From: Actinokineospora sp. NBRC 105648
GTDB taxonomy: Bacteria; Actinomycetota; Actinomycetes; Mycobacteriales; Pseudonocardiaceae
NCBI RefSeq assembly: GCF_030269645.1
Contig: NZ_BSTR01000002.1
Span: 124,001-188,000, forward strand
Direction of reading: 5' to 3'
DNA: 64,000 nt
A model generated the notes under the pieces. That model was not told where the DNA came from. It searched no databases and saw only the letters and a list, made by a program, of their open reading frames with translations. Position 1 is the first letter of the stretch, and each line of letters starts with the position of its first letter. Positions 4,363 to 14,438 of the stretch are shown one piece after another. Position numbers and translations under genes: made by a program.

Positions 4363-5877
4363 ATGTCCACCGACACCACCATTGTCCCGGCTGCGTCCAA
4401 GCCGAAGCAGCAGGTCGCCATCAACGACATCGGGACGGAGGAGGAGTTCCTCGCCGCCATCGACGCGACGATCAAGTACTTCAACGACGGCGACATCGTT
4501 GAGGGCACGATCGTCAAGGTCGACCGGGACGAGGTCCTGCTCGACATCGGCTACAAGACCGAGGGCGTCATCCCCTCGCGCGAGTTGTCGATCAAGCACG
4601 ATGTCGATCCCGCCGACGTGGTCAAGGTCGGCGACGAGATCGAGGCCCTCGTCCTGCAGAAGGAGGACAAGGAGGGTCGCCTGATCCTGTCCAAGAAGCG
4701 CGCGCAGTACGAGCGCGCCTGGGGCACGATCGAGGCGCTCAAGGAGTCGGACGAGCCGGTCAAGGGCACGGTCATCGAGGTCGTCAAGGGTGGTCTCATC
4801 CTGGACATCGGTCTGCGCGGCTTCCTGCCCGCGTCGCTGGTCGAGATGCGCCGCGTGCGCGACCTGCAGCCGTACGTGGGCCGCGAGCTCGAGGCGAAGA
4901 TCATAGAGCTGGACAAGAACCGCAACAACGTGGTCCTGTCCCGCCGCGCGTGGCTGGAGCAGACCCAGTCCGAGGTGCGCAGCGAGTTCCTCAACCAGCT
5001 CCAGAAGGGGCAGGTCCGCAAGGGCGTCGTGTCCTCGATCGTCAACTTCGGTGCCTTCGTGGACCTCGGTGGCGTCGACGGCCTGGTGCACGTCTCGGAG
5101 CTGTCCTGGAAGCACATCGACCACCCCTCCGAGGTGGTCGAGGTCGGCCAGGAGGTCACCGTCGAGGTCCTCGACGTCGACATGGAGCGCGAGCGCGTGT
5201 CGCTCTCGCTCAAGGCGACCCAGGAAGACCCGTGGCGCCAGTTCGCCCGCACCCACGCGATCGGCCAGATCGTGCCGGGCAAGGTCACCAAGCTGGTCCC
5301 GTTCGGTGCGTTCGTCCGGGTCGACGAGGGCATCGAGGGCCTGGTCCACATCTCCGAGCTGGCCGAGCGCCACGTGGAGATCCCGGAGCAGGTCGTGCAG
5401 GTCGGCAACGACGTCATGGTCAAGGTCATCGACATCGACCTGGAGCGCAGGCGGATCTCGCTCTCGCTCAAGCAGGCGAACGAGGGCTTCACGACCGAGA
5501 CCGAGTTCGACCCGACGCAGTACGGCATGGCCGCCGAGTACGACCCCGAGGGCAACTACATCTACCCCGAGGGCTTCGACCCGGACACCCAGGAGTGGCA
5601 GGAAGGCTTCGAGAAGCAGCGCGAGGAGTGGGAGCGCCAGTACGCCGAGGCGCACACCCGCTATGAGCAGCACATGAAGCAGATCGTCAAGGCAGCGGAG
5701 GCCGACGCGGCCGCCGAGGCCGAGGGCGTCATCGCCGCGGCCACCGGTGGCAGCACCAGCACCGGCGACCAGAGCTACTCCTCGGCGGGCTCGGACAAGC
5801 CCGCCCAGAGTGGCGGCACCCTCGCCAGCGACGAGCAGCTCGCCGCCCTCCGCGAGAAGCTGTCCGGCGGCGTCTGA
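4363..5877 (+). CDS. rpsA: 30S ribosomal protein S1
   Basis: 504 aa with four S1 OB-fold repeats at roughly residues 35-105, 120-190, 205-278 and 292-364; repeated VGQEVTVEVLDVD, FGAFVDLGGVDGLVHVSE and FGAFVRVDEGIEGLVHISE blocks are visible. The C-terminal 140 residues are acidic and disordered, as in other actinobacterial S1 proteins. It binds mRNA on the 30S subunit. ATG at 4363. It is monocistronic with its own promoter and a strong terminator. Confidence 0.97.
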   Translation: MSTDTTIVPAASKPKQQVAINDIGTEEEFLAAIDATIKYFNDGDIVEGTIVKVDRDEVLLDIGYKTEGVIPSRELSIKHDVDPADVVKVGDEIEALVLQKEDKEGRLILSKKRAQYERAWGTIEALKESDEPVKGTVIEVVKGGLILDIGLRGFLPASLVEMRRVRDLQPYVGRELEAKIIELDKNRNNVVLSRRAWLEQTQSEVRSEFLNQLQKGQVRKGVVSSIVNFGAFVDLGGVDGLVHVSELSWKHIDHPSEVVEVGQEVTVEVLDVDMERERVSLSLKATQEDPWRQFARTHAIGQIVPGKVTKLVPFGAFVRVDEGIEGLVHISELAERHVEIPEQVVQVGNDVMVKVIDIDLERRRISLSLKQANEGFTTETEFDPTQYGMAAEYDPEGNYIYPEGFDPDTQEWQEGFEKQREEWERQYAEAHTRYEQHMKQIVKAAEADAAAEAEGVIAAATGGSTSTGDQSYSSAGSDKPAQSGGTLASDEQLAALREKLSGGV

Positions 5878-5934
5878 CCGCCAGGCAGTAGCCACACCGC
5901 ACTAGCGACAGCGCGGTAGCCAGACCGAGGACCC

Positions 5935-5966
5935 GAGGGCCCCGCACCACCAGGTGCGGGGCCCTC
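5935..5966 (+). terminator. Rho-independent terminator of rpsA
   Basis: Perfect 13-bp stem GAGGGCCCCGCAC / GTGCGGGGCCCTC around a 6-nt loop, followed by GTCCTGTTTCC. Confidence 0.85.
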
Positions 5967-6099
5967 GTCCTGTTTCCGGGATAGCCCCGCCACCTACGAG
6001 AGCCGAGTTGCGCCACCTTGAGCGGCACGTCTCCAGACAGCGCCACGAAGCTGTCGTGCGAGCTACACCAACTCAAGCCGCATTGCCCGAGTCGCGTCT

Positions 6100-6299
6100 C
6101 CTATGTCGCACGCCCGCGACTGCGTTCCCCGGAGCTGTACCCCTCGAATCACCCCAGGTGCGCCGCATCCTCAAGCCACGCCTAGTGGACCTGCATCCTC
6201 AAGCCGCACCCAGCGCAGCCGTACCCCTCAACCCACGCCCACCAGAGCTGCATCCTGAGCTGCGCCCACCCGGGTTGTCCGTCTCAGGGGGTGTCGCTT
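6100..6299 (+). repeat. Degenerate C-rich tandem repeats upstream of hairpin element A
   Basis: The non-coding stretch between the rpsA terminator and element A contains loosely repeated units of about 25-27 bp with cores such as CTGCATCCTCAAGCC and CGTACCCCTCAACCC followed by CRCCCA. Divergence between units is high, so this is called by eye only. No open frame with coding character was seen from 5967 to 6300. Confidence 0.35.
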
Positions 6300-6472
6300 C
6301 CGCTGGTACGCGACGCGCGTGACGCGTGTGCTGGATTGGGTGGAGTGTCTTTGTGTGGGGTGGGGGACCCTGCAAACTCTCGGTGGGCGTGGGGATCTGT
6401 TCACCCCGCCCTTTGTTCCCCACGCAGGGTCCCTAGGGGCCCCGCGCAAAGACACTCCACCCAATCCAGCAC
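6300..6472 (+). repeat. Long-hairpin element, copy A
   Basis: A 5' flank CCGCTGGTACGCGAC (6300 on) is shared with copies B and C. The hairpin proper, 6328-6472 (145 nt), has a 33-bp outer stem starting GTGCTGGATTGGG and ending CCCAATCCAGCAC, an inner stem GGGACCCTGC / GCAGGGTCCC, and a G-rich apical part with AAACT and GTGGGCGTGGGGAT. The only mismatches in the outer stem are T opposite G, which are U-G pairs if the plus strand is RNA. It lies between rpsA and coaE. Confidence 0.75.
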
Positions 6473-6883
6473 TCACCACTCACTCGCGTACCCACGACGA
6501 GCGACCCCAGAGCAGCACCCCAAGCGAAACAAGATCAAGCAGGGCGAACCCGAACCACCCAAGCCCGCTCCACCGCCGCCACCCCAGCCCGCCGCCGCAA
6601 CCCCGCCAGCGTGTGCCGCGCCGGCACCAGCAACGCCGACCACCACGTCCGCGTCCGACCCTCGAGCGCCGCGGCGACCGCGTCGTGCGTGCGGCAGTGC
6701 ACCAGACCCGGCGTGCCCAGCCGGTGCCGTCCCGGGTGGCTGTTGTCGAGCATGGCGTTCCTCCGTCTGGGTGACCGACTCCGGCGCCACCGTAGCCACT
6801 CGACGTGCGAGAACTCCGGACCCGAGCGGCGTGTCACCCACGCCGGAGGTAACTGTTCGATCGCGGCTGCAAGAATGCCGATC

Positions 6884-8062
6884 ATGCTGCGCGTCGGCCT
6901 CACAGGCGGGATCGGGTCCGGGAAGTCCACTGTGGCCAGTCGGTTGGCCACCCTCGGCGCGGTGGTCGTCGACGCCGACCGGGTCGCCCGGGAGGTGGTC
7001 GAACCGGGCACCGACGGCCTGGCCGAGCTGGTCGGGGCGTTCGGTCCGGAGATCATCACCGACGGTGCCCTCGACCGCGCGCGGCTGGCCGCGATCGCCT
7101 TCGCCGACGAGCCGTCGCGGCAGCGGCTCAACGCGATCACCCACCCGCGCATCCGCGACCGCACCGCCGAGCTGATCGCCCAGGCGCCCGCCGACGCGGT
7201 CCTCGTGCACGACGTCCCGCTGCTGGTCGAGGGCGGTATGGGCGCGCTCTACCACCTGGTCGTCGTGGTCGACGCGCCGGTGGAGCGCCGGGTCGAGCGG
7301 CTGCTCGGCCGCGGTGTCGCCGAGGCCGACGCCCGCGCCCGGATCGCCGCGCAGGCCACCGACGAGGCCCGCCGCGCCGCCGCCGACGTCTGGCTCGACA
7401 ACAGCGGCGAGCGCGCGGCCGTCGAGGCCCAGGTCGACGCCCTCTGGGCTGATCGGCTCGAGCCGTTCCGCGACAGCATCCGCCGCCGCGCGCACATCCC
7501 GCGCGGCGCGCCGGTGATCGTCGACTACGACCCCACCTGGCCCGCCCAGGCCGCGCGGGTGTTGGCCAGGCTGCGCCTCGCGGTCGGTGACCGCGCCGTC
7601 CGGGTCGACCACATCGGCTCCACCTCGGTGCCCGGCCTGGCCGCGAAGGACGTGCTCGACTTCCAGATCACCGTCGACGCGCTCGACGACCGGCTCGACG
7701 AGCCGCTGGCCGCGGCGGGTTTCCCGCGCGACCCCGCGTTCAACCTCGACTCACCGCACCCGCCCGGCGGCCCCGAGACGCCCAAGCGCACCCACGTCTC
7801 CGCCGATCCCGTGCGCTGGGCGAACGTGCACGTCCGGGTCGAGGGCTCGCCGTTCGCCCGCTACAGCCTGCTGTTCCCGGCCTGGCTGCGCGCCGACGAC
7901 GTGGCCCGGGCGGAGTACGAGGCGGTCAAGCGCGGGTTGGCGGGACACTTCGACAACGCGCCGGAGTACGCGGTGGCCAAGGAGGGATGGTTCGACCGGG
8001 CGATCCCGCGCGCGGAGGGCTGGGCGCGCGCGTCCGGCTGGACCCCCTCGACAATGGGCTAG
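6884..8062 (+). CDS. coaE: Dephospho-CoA kinase fused to a GrpB (UPF0157) domain
   Basis: 392 aa. Residues 1-200 are CoaE: P-loop GLTGGIGSGKST near the N-terminus, then VVDADRVAREV and THPRIR; it phosphorylates dephospho-CoA to CoA. Residues from about 205 form a GrpB/UPF0157 nucleotidyltransferase-like domain (VDHIGSTSVPGLAAKDVLDFQI). This fusion is usual in mycobacteria and relatives. ATG 6884 gives the typical MLRVGLTGG start; an in-frame ATG at 6875 is possible. The stop shares a CTAG with the convergent DUF402 gene. Confidence 0.93.
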   Translation: MLRVGLTGGIGSGKSTVASRLATLGAVVVDADRVAREVVEPGTDGLAELVGAFGPEIITDGALDRARLAAIAFADEPSRQRLNAITHPRIRDRTAELIAQAPADAVLVHDVPLLVEGGMGALYHLVVVVDAPVERRVERLLGRGVAEADARARIAAQATDEARRAAADVWLDNSGERAAVEAQVDALWADRLEPFRDSIRRRAHIPRGAPVIVDYDPTWPAQAARVLARLRLAVGDRAVRVDHIGSTSVPGLAAKDVLDFQITVDALDDRLDEPLAAAGFPRDPAFNLDSPHPPGGPETPKRTHVSADPVRWANVHVRVEGSPFARYSLLFPAWLRADDVARAEYEAVKRGLAGHFDNAPEYAVAKEGWFDRAIPRAEGWARASGWTPSTMG

Positions 8063-10642: not shown

Positions 10643-12802
10643 GTGGCTTTCCCGACCGAGCACCCAGTCCTGGCGCACTCCGAGCACCGACCCGTCAGCG
10701 CCATCCCGCGCGCGACGGGCAAGTTCCGCATGGTCGCCGACTACCAGCCCGCGGGCGACCAGCCGGTCGCGATCGACGAGCTGGAGCGGCGCATCCGGGG
10801 CGGCGAGGAGGACGTGGTGCTGCTCGGCGCCACGGGCACCGGCAAGTCGGCCACCACGGCCTGGCTGATCGAGCGGGTGCAGCGGCCCACGTTGGTGATG
10901 GCGCCGAACAAGACGCTCGCGGCGCAGCTGGCCAACGAGCTGCGCGAGTTCTTCCCGGACAACGCGGTGGAGTACTTCGTCAGCTACTACGACTACTACC
11001 AGCCCGAGGCCTACATCCCGCAGACCGACACCTACATCGAGAAGGACTCGTCGATCAACGACGACGTCGAGCGGCTGCGGCACTCGGCGACGATGAGCCT
11101 GCTCTCCCGCCGCGACGTGATCGTGGTGGCGTCGGTGTCCTGCATCTACGGCCTGGGCACCCCGCAGTCCTACCTGGACCGCTCGGTCGGGCTCAAGGTC
11201 GGCGACCAGCTGGACCGGGACATGTTCCTGCGCGCGCTGGTCGACGTGCAGTACGCGCGCAACGACATCGCCTTCGCCCGCGGCACCTTCCGGGTGCGCG
11301 GCGACACCGTGGAGATCATCCCGGCGTACGAGGAGCTGGCCATCCGGGTCGAGTTCTTCGGCGACGAGATCGACAAGCTGTACTACCTGCACCCGCTCAC
11401 CGGTGACATCGTCCGCGAGTGCGCGGAGCTGCGGATCTTCCCGGCCACGCACTACGTCGCGGGTCCGGAGCGGATGGAGCGGGCGATCAAGGGCATCGAG
11501 GAGGAGCTGGAGGAGCGGCTGGCGACGCTGGAGCGCCAGGGCAAGCTCCTCGAGGCCCAGCGGCTGCGCATGCGCACCAGCTACGACGTCGAGATGATGC
11601 GCCAGGTCGGCTTCTGCTCGGGTATCGAGAACTACTCCCGCCACATCGACGGCCGCGGCGCGGGCACGGCACCGGCCACGCTGATCGACTACTTCCCGGA
11701 CGACTTCCTGCTGGTGATCGACGAGTCGCACGTGACGGTGCCGCAGATCGGCGGCATGTACGAGGGCGACATGTCCCGCAAGCGCAACCTGGTCGAACAC
11801 GGCTTCCGGCTGCCCAGCGCGGTCGACAACCGCCCGCTGACCTGGGAGGAGTTCACCCAGCGGATCGGCCAGACGGTGTACCTGTCGGCCACCCCGGGCC
11901 CGTACGAGATGGGCCAGGCGGGCGGCGAGTTCGTCGAGCAGGTCATCCGCCCCACCGGCCTGGTCGACCCGGAGGTCGTGATCAAGCCGACCGAGGGCCA
12001 GATCGACGACCTGGTCCACGAGATCCGCGTCCGCGCGGAACGCGACGAGCGCGTCCTGGTCACCACGCTGACCAAGAAGATGTCCGAGGACCTGACCGAC
12101 TACCTGTTGGAACTGGGTATCCGCGTCCGCTACCTGCACTCCGAAGTGGACACCCTCCGCCGCGTCGAACTCCTGCGGCAACTCCGCCAGGGCGACTACG
12201 ACGTCCTCATCGGCATCAACCTGCTGCGCGAGGGCCTGGACTTGCCCGAGGTCTCCCTGGTCGCCATCCTCGACGCAGACAAGGAGGGCTTCCTCCGCAG
12301 TGGAACGTCCCTGATCCAGACCATCGGCCGAGCCGCCCGAAACGTCTCCGGCCAGGTCCACATGTACGCCGACAAGATCACCGACTCGATGCGCCACGCG
12401 ATCGACGAGACCGACCGCAGGCGCGTCAAACAGGTCGCCTACAACACCGAGCGCGGCCTCGACCCCCAGCCGCTCCGCAAGAAGATCGCCGACATCCTCG
12501 ACCGCGTCCTCACCGAGGCAGAGGACGACGACACGGTCCCCGTGGGCGGCTCCGGCCGCAACACGTCCCGGGGCAAACGCGCCACCGGCGAAGCAGGCAA
12601 GGCCCGCAGCGCGGGCATCGTCGGCGAACGCGACGTCAAGACCATGCCCCGCGCCGCCCTGGCAGACCTGGTCCAGCAACTCACCGACCAGATGATGAAC
12701 GCCGCACGCGACCTCCAGTTCGAACTCGCCGCCCGCCTCCGCGACGAGATCCACGACCTCAAACGCGAACTCCGAGGAATGGACGCCGCAGGCATCAAGT
12801 AA
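10643..12802 (+). CDS. uvrB: UvrABC system protein B
   Basis: 719 aa from GTG 10643 ([18 protein letters not shown], usual actinobacterial start). Walker [12 protein letters not shown], beta-hairpin [12 protein letters not shown] that inserts behind the lesion, helicase motifs VIDESHVT and TIGRAARN, and a C-terminal UVR domain ([17 protein letters not shown]) for UvrC contact are all present. It verifies damage in nucleotide excision repair. Codon choice changes near 12100: CTC, GAA and AAA become common in the last 700 bp, while the first 1450 bp use CTG, GAG and AAG like neighbouring genes. Confidence 0.97.
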
Positions 12803-12852: not shown

Positions 12853-13051
12853 CTCAGTTGCAGGCTTGCATCAATAGCGCACTCGGATGTCCCAATGAGA
12901 GCCGACTGCCTCTAGAGATTGCTGCCACCTGCCAGCAGACCGCAGCAGGACCCCAAGCGCGCTGGTGCAGCCGCCCCGCCATGGATCCGCGCATCACAAT
13001 CACCACCTGCGACCCACCACTTGCGACCTGAAGGCCGCCCCACCCGCTCAG

Positions 13052-13200
13052 CCGCAGCGGAAGGCTGCCCTGGCACCCACCACCCGCCGCAGCGGAAAGG
13101 CGCCCTCGCCATCCACCCGCCCGCAGCGGATAGGCCGACCCCGCTGGCACCCAAGCGAATCCCGCCCCCCAGCTAACCGCAGCGGTGAGGCCGACCCCGC
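13052..13200 (+). repeat. Four degenerate repeats with core CCGCAGCGG
   Basis: CCGCAGCGG followed by two variable bases and AGGC starts at 13052, 13087, 13121 and 13177. The last two are nearly identical over about 36 bp and run on into CCGCTGGNACNCAAG; the final copy leads directly into the conserved 5' flank of hairpin element B. No coding frame is apparent from 12853 to 13200. Confidence 0.55.
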
Positions 13201-13362
13201 TGGTACGCAAGTCCCGTTACGGATGCTCGATCTAGTGGACTCGCTTCGTGTGGGGGGAGAGTGCCGCTAAACTTGCCGTGGGTGGGGATGCCCTTACCTG
13301 CCCTTTTCTCTCCACCGCGGTGCTCTAGGGGCCCCGCGCGAAGCGAGTTCACTAGATCGAGC
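13197..13362 (+). repeat. Long-hairpin element, copy B
   Basis: Shared flank CCGCTGGTACGC at 13197, hairpin 13225-13362 (138 nt). Outer stem about 31 bp from GCTCGATCTAGTGGACTCGC to its complement, with three G-T oppositions that become G-U pairs in plus-strand RNA. Inner stem GAGTGCCGC / GCGGTGCTC (two wobbles). The 44-nt block from TGGGGGGAGAGTGCC to GGGGATGCCCTT is identical in copy C, although the outer arms differ. Confidence 0.78.
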
Positions 13363-13374
13363 CCCTATCTTTTC

Positions 13375-13453
13375 CTCGGGCAGCCCAAGCGATGAGCCGC
13401 CGAAGACGGTCGACCGTAGGTCGGTGTGCGGCACACCCCACGAGCTGCCCGAG
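13375..13453. other. 79-nt structured spacer between elements B and C
   Basis: An outer 10-bp inverted repeat CTCGGGCAGC / GCTGCCCGAG encloses two further hairpins: the 12-bp palindrome ACGGTCGACCGT at 13406-13417 and GGTGT/ACACC with loop GCGGC just after. The fold would be a three-way or four-way junction. It has no anticodon arm, T-loop consensus or CCA, so it is not a tRNA. Strand and transcription are unknown. Confidence 0.45.
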
Positions 13454-13463
13454 TAAGAGCGGG

Positions 13464-13632
13464 GCTCGATTGGCTGGACTACCTTCGCGTGGGGCCCCTA
13501 GAGCACCGCGGTGGGGAAAAAGCGTGGGGTGAAGGGCATCCCCACCCACGGCAAGTTTAGCGGCACTCTCCCCCCACACGAAGGCAGTCCACCCAATCGA
13601 GCACAAACGTAACGGGTGTTGCGTACCAGCGG
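13464..13632 (-). repeat. Long-hairpin element, copy C (inverted relative to B)
   Basis: Read on the minus strand: flank CCGCTGGTACGCAAC from 13632, hairpin from 13602 down to 13464 (139 nt). Outer stem starts GCTCGATTGGGTGGACTGCC; against its partner it has one G-G mismatch and two G-U-type oppositions. Inner stem and apical block match copy B. The arms resemble copy A (GGATTGGGTGGA) in part and copy B in part. Confidence 0.78.
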
Positions 13633-13787: not shown

Positions 13788-14438
13788 TTAGACCGATGCG
13801 GTCTGGCGGGTAGCGAAGGCCTTGCCGGTGGTGGCCGCGAGTTCGTGTGCGGCGGCCTGGGACTGCTTGGCCAGGGGGACCAGTTCCGCCATGGCCGGGG
13901 TGACCTCCGCCAGCGTCAGTTCAGCCGCGACGGTCGTCAGCTCGGCACCCAGGACGTCCTGGAAGATGCGGACCAGCCACGGGGTCGCGTGGTCCCAACC
14001 ATCGCGGGGGGTGCCGGGGCCGTAACCGCCGCCACGGGCGATGACGAGGGCGACGGTCTTGCCGGTCAGCGGGCGCTGGCCGGGGGCGAAGCGGGGGTCG
14101 GTCAGCAGCAGGTCGATCCAGGACTTGAGGTGCTGTGAGACGCCGAAGTTGTAGAGCGAGGTGCCGATCACGATCGACTCGGCGGCCACCAGTTCGTCGG
14201 CCAGTTCGGTGGCCAGGTCCTTGGCCTGTTGCTGGGCGGGGGTGCGGGCGTCGCCGGCGTAGTTGCCCGCGATGCTGTCGGTCCAGGCGTCGGTGGGGAC
14301 CGGGGTGGTCGCCAGGTCCCGTCGGGCGATCTCGCCGGTGGGGTGGGCCGCCTGCCAGTTCGCGGTCACCGTGTCGGCGACGGCGCGGCTGACGGAGCCC
14401 TCCTGGCGGATGCTGCTGTCGACGCGGAACAAGCTCAT
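13788..14438 (-). CDS. azoR: FMN-dependent NADH:quinone reductase / azoreductase
   Basis: 216 aa. SLFRVDSSIRQEGSVSRAVADT is the flavodoxin-like phosphate loop, SIVIGTSLYNFGVSQHLKSW and VIARGGGYGPGTPRDGWDH are AzoR-type FMN and substrate loops. The enzyme reduces quinones and azo compounds with NADH in the cytoplasm. ATG 14438 has GGGAGAG upstream. It is divergent from a MarR regulator across an 82-bp region with an inverted repeat, the usual arrangement for quinone/electrophile-sensing control. Confidence 0.9.
   Translation of the reverse strand: MSLFRVDSSIRQEGSVSRAVADTVTANWQAAHPTGEIARRDLATTPVPTDAWTDSIAGNYAGDARTPAQQQAKDLATELADELVAAESIVIGTSLYNFGVSQHLKSWIDLLLTDPRFAPGQRPLTGKTVALVIARGGGYGPGTPRDGWDHATPWLVRIFQDVLGAELTTVAAELTLAEVTPAMAELVPLAKQSQAAAHELAATTGKAFATRQTASV

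Follow-up and report, generated by a model that had tools for sequence, protein, structure and literature searches.

Long intergenic hairpin repeats with a conserved fold and changing arms in Actinokineospora and other Pseudonocardiaceae

The genome of Actinokineospora sp. NBRC 105648 contains an amplified and dispersed family of intergenic hairpin units which, although sequence is what usually defines an intergenic repeat in bacteria, instead keeps its fold, an internal loop and a loop motif, and does so despite changes at most stem positions in Actinokineospora and at least eight other genera. Our best explanation, to which we give a probability of about one half, is that the units are non-autonomous mobile repeats with a REPIN- or YPAL-like way of life, the folded strand being recognised by a trans-acting host factor when the repeat is copied. 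The unit strand would fold into a long hairpin with the fixed internal loop and the loop motif, and this folded single strand, either as RNA or as single-stranded DNA, would be the copying intermediate that the putative factor recognises. Each species would have expanded its own version, so that the arms diverge and the fold is kept, and insertions would survive between gene ends, chiefly between convergent genes, the placement thus reflecting survival rather than targeting. Mobility with a folded-strand intermediate would account jointly for the copy number, the site differences, the species-specific arms and the strand bias.

Three units are present in the window, by which we mean the whole stretch of 64,000 nucleotides that was analysed. 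Unit A (6300..6477, plus strand) is a single hairpin unit with a 5' flank, its hairpin proper spanning 6328-6472 with the internal-loop bulge UAGGGG at 6434-6439. It lies alone between two codirectional genes of the plus strand, 4363..5877 and 6884..8062, which we take to be rpsA and coaE, and the upstream gene is followed by a terminator-like stem of 15 pairs (5934..5967, plus strand) that is distinct from unit A. Unit B (13197..13373, plus strand; hairpin proper 13225-13362, bulge UAGGGG 13326-13331) and unit C (13453..13632, minus strand; hairpin proper 13464-13602, bulge UAGGGG on the minus strand 13495-13500) face inward across a spacer of about 80 nt (13374..13452) and form a composite element of 436 bp (13197..13632). 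A weak inverted repeat (13369-13400 / 13428-13459, 75%) extends across the spacer. The composite is located between the convergent genes 10643..12802 (plus strand, presumably uvrB) and 13788..14438 (minus strand), and a degenerate tandem array of 34-35-bp repeats (13051..13144, plus strand), through which the similarity between loci tapers off, is found on the outer side of unit B.

The flank CCGCTGGTACGC is common to all three units in the alignment when unit C is taken on the minus strand, as had been noticed in a sequence-only reading of the window, which described a three-copy family with separate copies at 13197 and 13464. Both of these units exist; they are however the two inward-facing halves of the one composite 13197-13632, and the number three applies to the window only, the core being found 125 times in the genome. 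The pairing of the arms reported by the same reading is confirmed, the outer arms being 94% complementary over 33 nt in unit A (6328-6360/6440-6472) and 90% complementary over 31 nt both in unit B (13225-13255/13332-13362) and in unit C (13464-13494/13572-13602), while the inner stem of unit A, GGGACCCTGC/GCAGGGTCCC, pairs exactly. It had also been right that the imperfect positions are mostly G-T on the strand carrying the flank, which is the case for seven of the eight in the outer stems of A, B and C, the eighth being a G-G in C.

The 125 places of the 19-base core in the window's genome are divided into 59 forward and 66 reverse ones, and the reversed control pattern occurs at none. The exact core was found in none of the 15 congeners (0/15), and a related core is present in 102, 54, 37 and 12 copies in four of the six congeners searched and absent from the other two. 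On the single contig of one congener (G005), 14 consecutive cores (of 54) between 2.17 and 4.33 Mb all lie on the plus strand, the strands being mixed elsewhere. For the anatomy of the elements, 80 stretches were analysed together with the window, representing 88 of the 100 core places listed (of 125) and two further places; 12 listed places, several of them at contig ends, were left out. This sample contains 137 units, namely 53 adjacent pairs, of which 50 face inward, and 31 singles. Most of the inward pairs (37/50) are B/C composites, 13 contain other types or an unclassed unit, and B/B or C/C composites were not found among the 50, so that inverted heterotypic B/C pairs are the commonest arrangement in this genome and singles make up most of the remainder. 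No sign of conversion between paired units was seen: in 35 of the 37 B/C composites, the inner similarity of a B to its own C is 0.852, and with shuffled partners it is 0.853. At least 11 of the genome's 149 contigs (C1, C9, C18, C19, C25, C26, C30, C35, C46, C48 and C55) carry the unit flank motif no more than 450 bp from their first base, suggesting that the repeats probably break the assembly and that copies are undercounted.

Each unit is a hairpin of about 140 nt, consisting of a 30-bp outer stem that terminates in GGGG/CCCC, an asymmetric internal loop formed by GGA opposite UAGGGG, an inner stem and, after the 5' strand of the inner stem, a short motif which reads UAAACU, UAGC or UAAGCU. 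The foot of the hairpin is GCTCGAT-like in most Actinokineospora units inspected and differs elsewhere. Among 27 units of nine Actinokineospora species, picked for low redundancy, 95.3% of the cells are paired, compared with 36-47% in slid-structure controls, and 32 of 43 pairs show changes on both sides; these numbers are favoured by the relatedness of the copies and by taking the structure from the same alignment. None of 500 shuffles reached any of the five covariation measures, a result which, like the event counts given below, overstates independence, since copies within a genome share ancestry. The folding energy is lower on the unit strand in 155 of 163 units.

Covariation bears out the structural half of the sequence-only reading, which had concluded in favour of a selected RNA structure and against a simple mobile inverted repeat. 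The second half is a different matter: the family is an amplified, dispersed repeat of which each species has its own version, and the window sites are free of units in the congeners that can be read there, so that the contrast drawn between structure and mobility is unsupported. The reading was right on structure and wrong in opposing structure to mobility.

The strand bias of the wobbles, the other ground given for an RNA, holds in Actinokineospora and does not extend to the other genera. Counted without folding in 162 hairpins of nine Actinokineospora genomes, the outer stems contain 388 G.T and 9 A.C pairs, the same 33 positions also comprising 4606 Watson-Crick pairs and 341 others, chiefly G.G at the border with the internal loop. 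For this count one partial unit of the window's genome was excluded and one of 163 units was dropped because it had no main stem under the trimming rule. Reduced to distinct position/pair events there are 75 G.T, 8 A.C and 52 others, and the binomial probability of 75 against 8 is 9e-15 if shared descent is ignored. The inner stem shows 136 G.T, 7 A.C and 139 others. In other genera, 18 outer pairs in 28 hairpins gave 452 Watson-Crick pairs, 10 G.T, 8 A.C and 34 others; these stems are nearly perfect, so that the strand test offers no argument for RNA in these genera, where, the asymmetry being absent, the relevant form could be a single folded strand of DNA or the DNA palindrome itself.

The near-perfect Watson-Crick arms of the other genera, with no G.T bias (10 to 8), are what would be expected if the repeats acted as DNA, that is, if the palindromes lay between convergent genes as cruciforms or as binding sites for a protein such as gyrase, and if the pairing were maintained through quasipalindrome correction at replication rather than through selection on one strand. 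Gyrase binding has been proposed for REPs. In addition, positive supercoils are said to gather in convergent gaps, according to PMC1525189. Correction would however erase G.T and A.C alike, which is at odds with the 388 to 9 in Actinokineospora, and a mutational cause of the wobble bias is unlikely as well, since the flanks on the unit strand are G-poor and C-rich, the opposite of what C-to-T changes on that strand would leave. We therefore consider a purely DNA-level role unlikely.

The placement of the elements avoids genes and promoters. Using a gene caller with codon usage trained on the window, and counting as overlap more than 60 bases, none of the 84 elements of the window's genome and none of 48 units of five congeners (132 in total) overlaps a gene. 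Where the neighbours are known, which left out 1 composite, 2 singles and 13 congener units, they are convergent for 36/52 composites, 19/29 singles and 24/35 congener units. By comparison, only 20/178 of the remaining gene pairs in these congener loci are convergent (p = 7e-12 against the 24/35 congener units), or 9/54 if congener pairs with gaps of at least 200 bp are considered (p = 1e-6), and in the window the proportion is 8/47 with the composite's own gap counted in. Divergent neighbours were found for 1/52 composites, 0/29 singles and 0/35 congener units, as opposed to 49/178 other pairs. Among own singles and congener units in codirectional gaps, 11 run along the genes ('++') and 10 against them ('--'), so that no orientation rule relative to codirectional genes was seen.

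The flanks have a composition of their own, being rich in C and poor in G on the unit strand. Over the 120 bases upstream, C exceeds G in 98/100 composite flanks, 27/31 singles, 42/43 congener units, all 15 copies in genome G126 and 21/24 copies of eight other genera (0/1 in g16 and 1/3 in g50). Downstream, C exceeds G in 32/43 congener units and 19/24 copies of other genera. An excess of A over T upstream is uneven, with 26/31 singles, 57/100 composite flanks, 24/43 congener units, 15/15 copies in G126 and 20/24 copies in other genera. The mean flank skew of the singles in the window's genome is independent of gene direction (6, 19 and 4 singles per class).

Taken together with the convergent enrichment, the excess of C over G upstream of the hairpin suggests the main functional rival to mobility, namely termination, in which the C-rich, G-poor flank would be a Rho loading site and the hairpin a terminator or a block to 3' exonucleases, read-through between convergent genes would be prevented, and copies would be kept for working there. 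Inward pairs would then represent one unit after each convergent gene, and the strand-specific wobbles would be explained by an RNA. This explanation however fails on orientation, as units in codirectional gaps lie against the genes as often as along them (10 '--' to 11 '++'), a result that speaks neither for nor against mobility. The flank downstream is likewise C-rich, unit A comes after a separate terminator-like stem, the readable congeners manage without a unit at both window sites, and the conserved internal loop is not required by a terminator. Gene-end function as the reason for the family is thus rather unlikely.

The differences between species at these sites are what mobile repeats would leave. 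When the uvrB and coaE loci (16 each) were compared, units were present only in those of the window's own genome. The rpsA-coaE gap contains no unit in the 9 of 15 congeners in which it is wholly visible, the remaining six not being judged because rpsA lies beyond the locus or contig end, and in one congener (G009) the gene after uvrB is kept without a unit, as seen by eye. Inspection by eye also showed a lipoprotein-like ORF in the rpsA-coaE gap of several congeners, corresponding to 5878-6883 of the window, which seems to have been lost in the genome studied here, where the gap contains repeats and unit A.

The same species-specificity of both window sites, together with the dispersal of over 100 similar copies, makes it highly improbable that the units are independent sRNA genes, each with its own promoter, as the conserved loop motif and the strand bias might suggest. 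A search of 5800-6880 gave no sigma-70-like promoter, although the consensus is not suited to all actinobacterial promoters.

As regards the route of spread in our preferred reading, that of mobile repeats copied through a folded strand, the genome of the window has no match to the Y1 transposase family (PF01797), so that a RAYT route is unsupported there; two of the 16 genus genomes have such a match. No obvious target-site duplication was seen by eye in the flanks of the 84 elements and 48 units, where similarity is lost gradually, and clean empty sites were not encountered. Among the 18 copies of A. diospyrosa, roughly half of all pairs remain alignable to some 280 bp upstream of the hairpin core, as against only some 80 bp past its 3' end, with gradual fading on both sides, and in G126 8 of the 15 fetched hairpins are identical with different surroundings. 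Such gradually fading shared flanks could result from transposition or, equally well, from copies recombining with each other. A further dispersed module, about 130-150 bp long and containing CCTGTGGACAAC...GTTGTGGACAAC, was noticed by eye 3' of the hairpin at four A. diospyrosa loci (L243, L228, L260 and L234), once or more per locus. The sequence TTGTCCACA we take to be the actinomycete DnaA-box core.

Fading flanks, suggesting spread by recombination, would also suit a selfish element encoding a DUF222 protein, of which the repeats would be the ends or ORF-less remnants, cleavage and repair spreading hairpin and flanks together. DUF222 proteins are kin to 13E12/HNH proteins. Indeed, in G181, a genome from another genus, all five fetched outward unit pairs, 1.0-2.1 kb apart, flank a DUF222 coding sequence; in these five islands (L321-L325) the ORF is broken in one and doubled in one. 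Against this, Pfam gives DUF222 alone and no HNH domain in the ORF tested, the three related genes in 16 Actinokineospora genomes have no unit within the approximately 1.5 kb fetched on either side, and the island units face outward, whereas most Actinokineospora pairs face inward. As a general answer such an element is very unlikely, being unsupported in Actinokineospora; it stays a lead for G181.

Concerning the distribution of the family, blastn with the composite as query, scoring 10 candidates in each genome, found relatives in 9 of the 16 genus genomes (the own one included) and in none of the 45 from other genera. The sequence-only reading had proposed a search of Pseudonocardiaceae with a covariance model, and the model built from the 27 units, under which C, B and A score 145, 135 and 132 bits (all three being among its building sequences), matches 37 of 249 genomes of this family with 12 candidates scored per genome. 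These comprise 15 of the 16 Actinokineospora genomes, G012 being the exception, and 22 genomes of ten other genera; a deeper search of five matching genomes gave 8 to 60 matches each. As true hairpins reach 31-64 bits even when read in reverse, the scores of 44-66 bits outside the genus are alone no proof of kinship, for which reason the loop motif and the bulge were looked for as well. Both the motif and the 3' bulge are present in all 15 loci tested (15 of the 22 genomes, 8 of the 10 genera), using expressions that were chosen after the sequences had been seen and that match 7% and 3% of shuffled windows. In an alignment of 30 matches of other genera, 96.6% of the cells are paired and 40 of 43 pairs are doubly changed, values which are favourable because the alignment was fitted to the structure. 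Throughout the phylum (396 genomes at 1e-6, with 8 candidates scored per genome), the own genome and one other matched; the latter (L361, G369:C87:65238-65373) was rejected, being a perfect palindrome without loop motif or bulge. This palindrome, in another actinobacterial family, is at least 166 bases long and possibly an assembly artefact.

The family thus provides hundreds of natural compensatory mutants, and it allows tests of which strand of such a repeat is recognised, and of the factor that recognises it, in a genome with many copies in which the known mobiliser of REPs has no match. That the repeats constitute a Pseudonocardiaceae-wide mobile class, defined by fold and without a gene of its own, with a UAGGGG-type loop, a UARRCU-type motif, C-rich and G-poor flanks on the same strand and a folded single-strand, non-RAYT mode of spread, is a possible but rather doubtful generalisation. 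No account of the hairpin family was found in the open-access literature, most subscription papers lying outside this coverage, and the main text of a 2025 survey of REPs (PMC12306157), searched by term, mentions neither Actinokineospora nor Amycolatopsis.

When compared with known systems, the units resemble the structured RNA families of Rfam in covariation and, within Actinokineospora, in strand bias, and differ in that they have no match at the gathering score, in agreement with the earlier statement that no known RNA family was recognised; below that score two microRNA-precursor families and one sRNA family appear. The matches at the gathering score, a glycine riboswitch (RF00504, 34793-34893, plus strand, 59.8 bits) and the Ms_AS-4 sRNA, both lie away from the units. 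The phage and plasmid collections contained no match to the units. A REP unit is short and has a GTAG-type foot. The units, for which the Actinokineospora foot is mostly GCTCGAT-like, include no such short unit; they are hairpins of about 140 nt with an internal loop, whereas a REP is a palindrome of some 20-40 nt, their arms vary and compensate, and the own genome is without a Y1 transposase match, so that membership of REPIN/RAYT fails on both the transposase and the unit. The likeness lies in the arrangement: according to PMC3116915 and PMC1525189, REP, BIME and REPIN elements are extragenic, of high copy number, present as inverted doublets and singles and often found between convergent genes, and our units are likewise extragenic inverted doublets (50/53 adjacent pairs inward) with 31 singles. 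MITEs are also short, non-autonomous elements with inverted terminal parts and many copies; by eye the flanks of the units show no obvious target-site duplication, and their inner stem covaries too. ERIC and YPAL, listed among structured families in PMC2267715, are intergenic, multi-copy hairpins of about 130-170 bp, and the units, as multi-copy intergenic hairpins of the class of about 100-170 bp, share this way of life; they differ in their fixed asymmetric loop, their loop motif, their inverted heterotypic pairs and in arms that covary over Actinokineospora and eight other genera.
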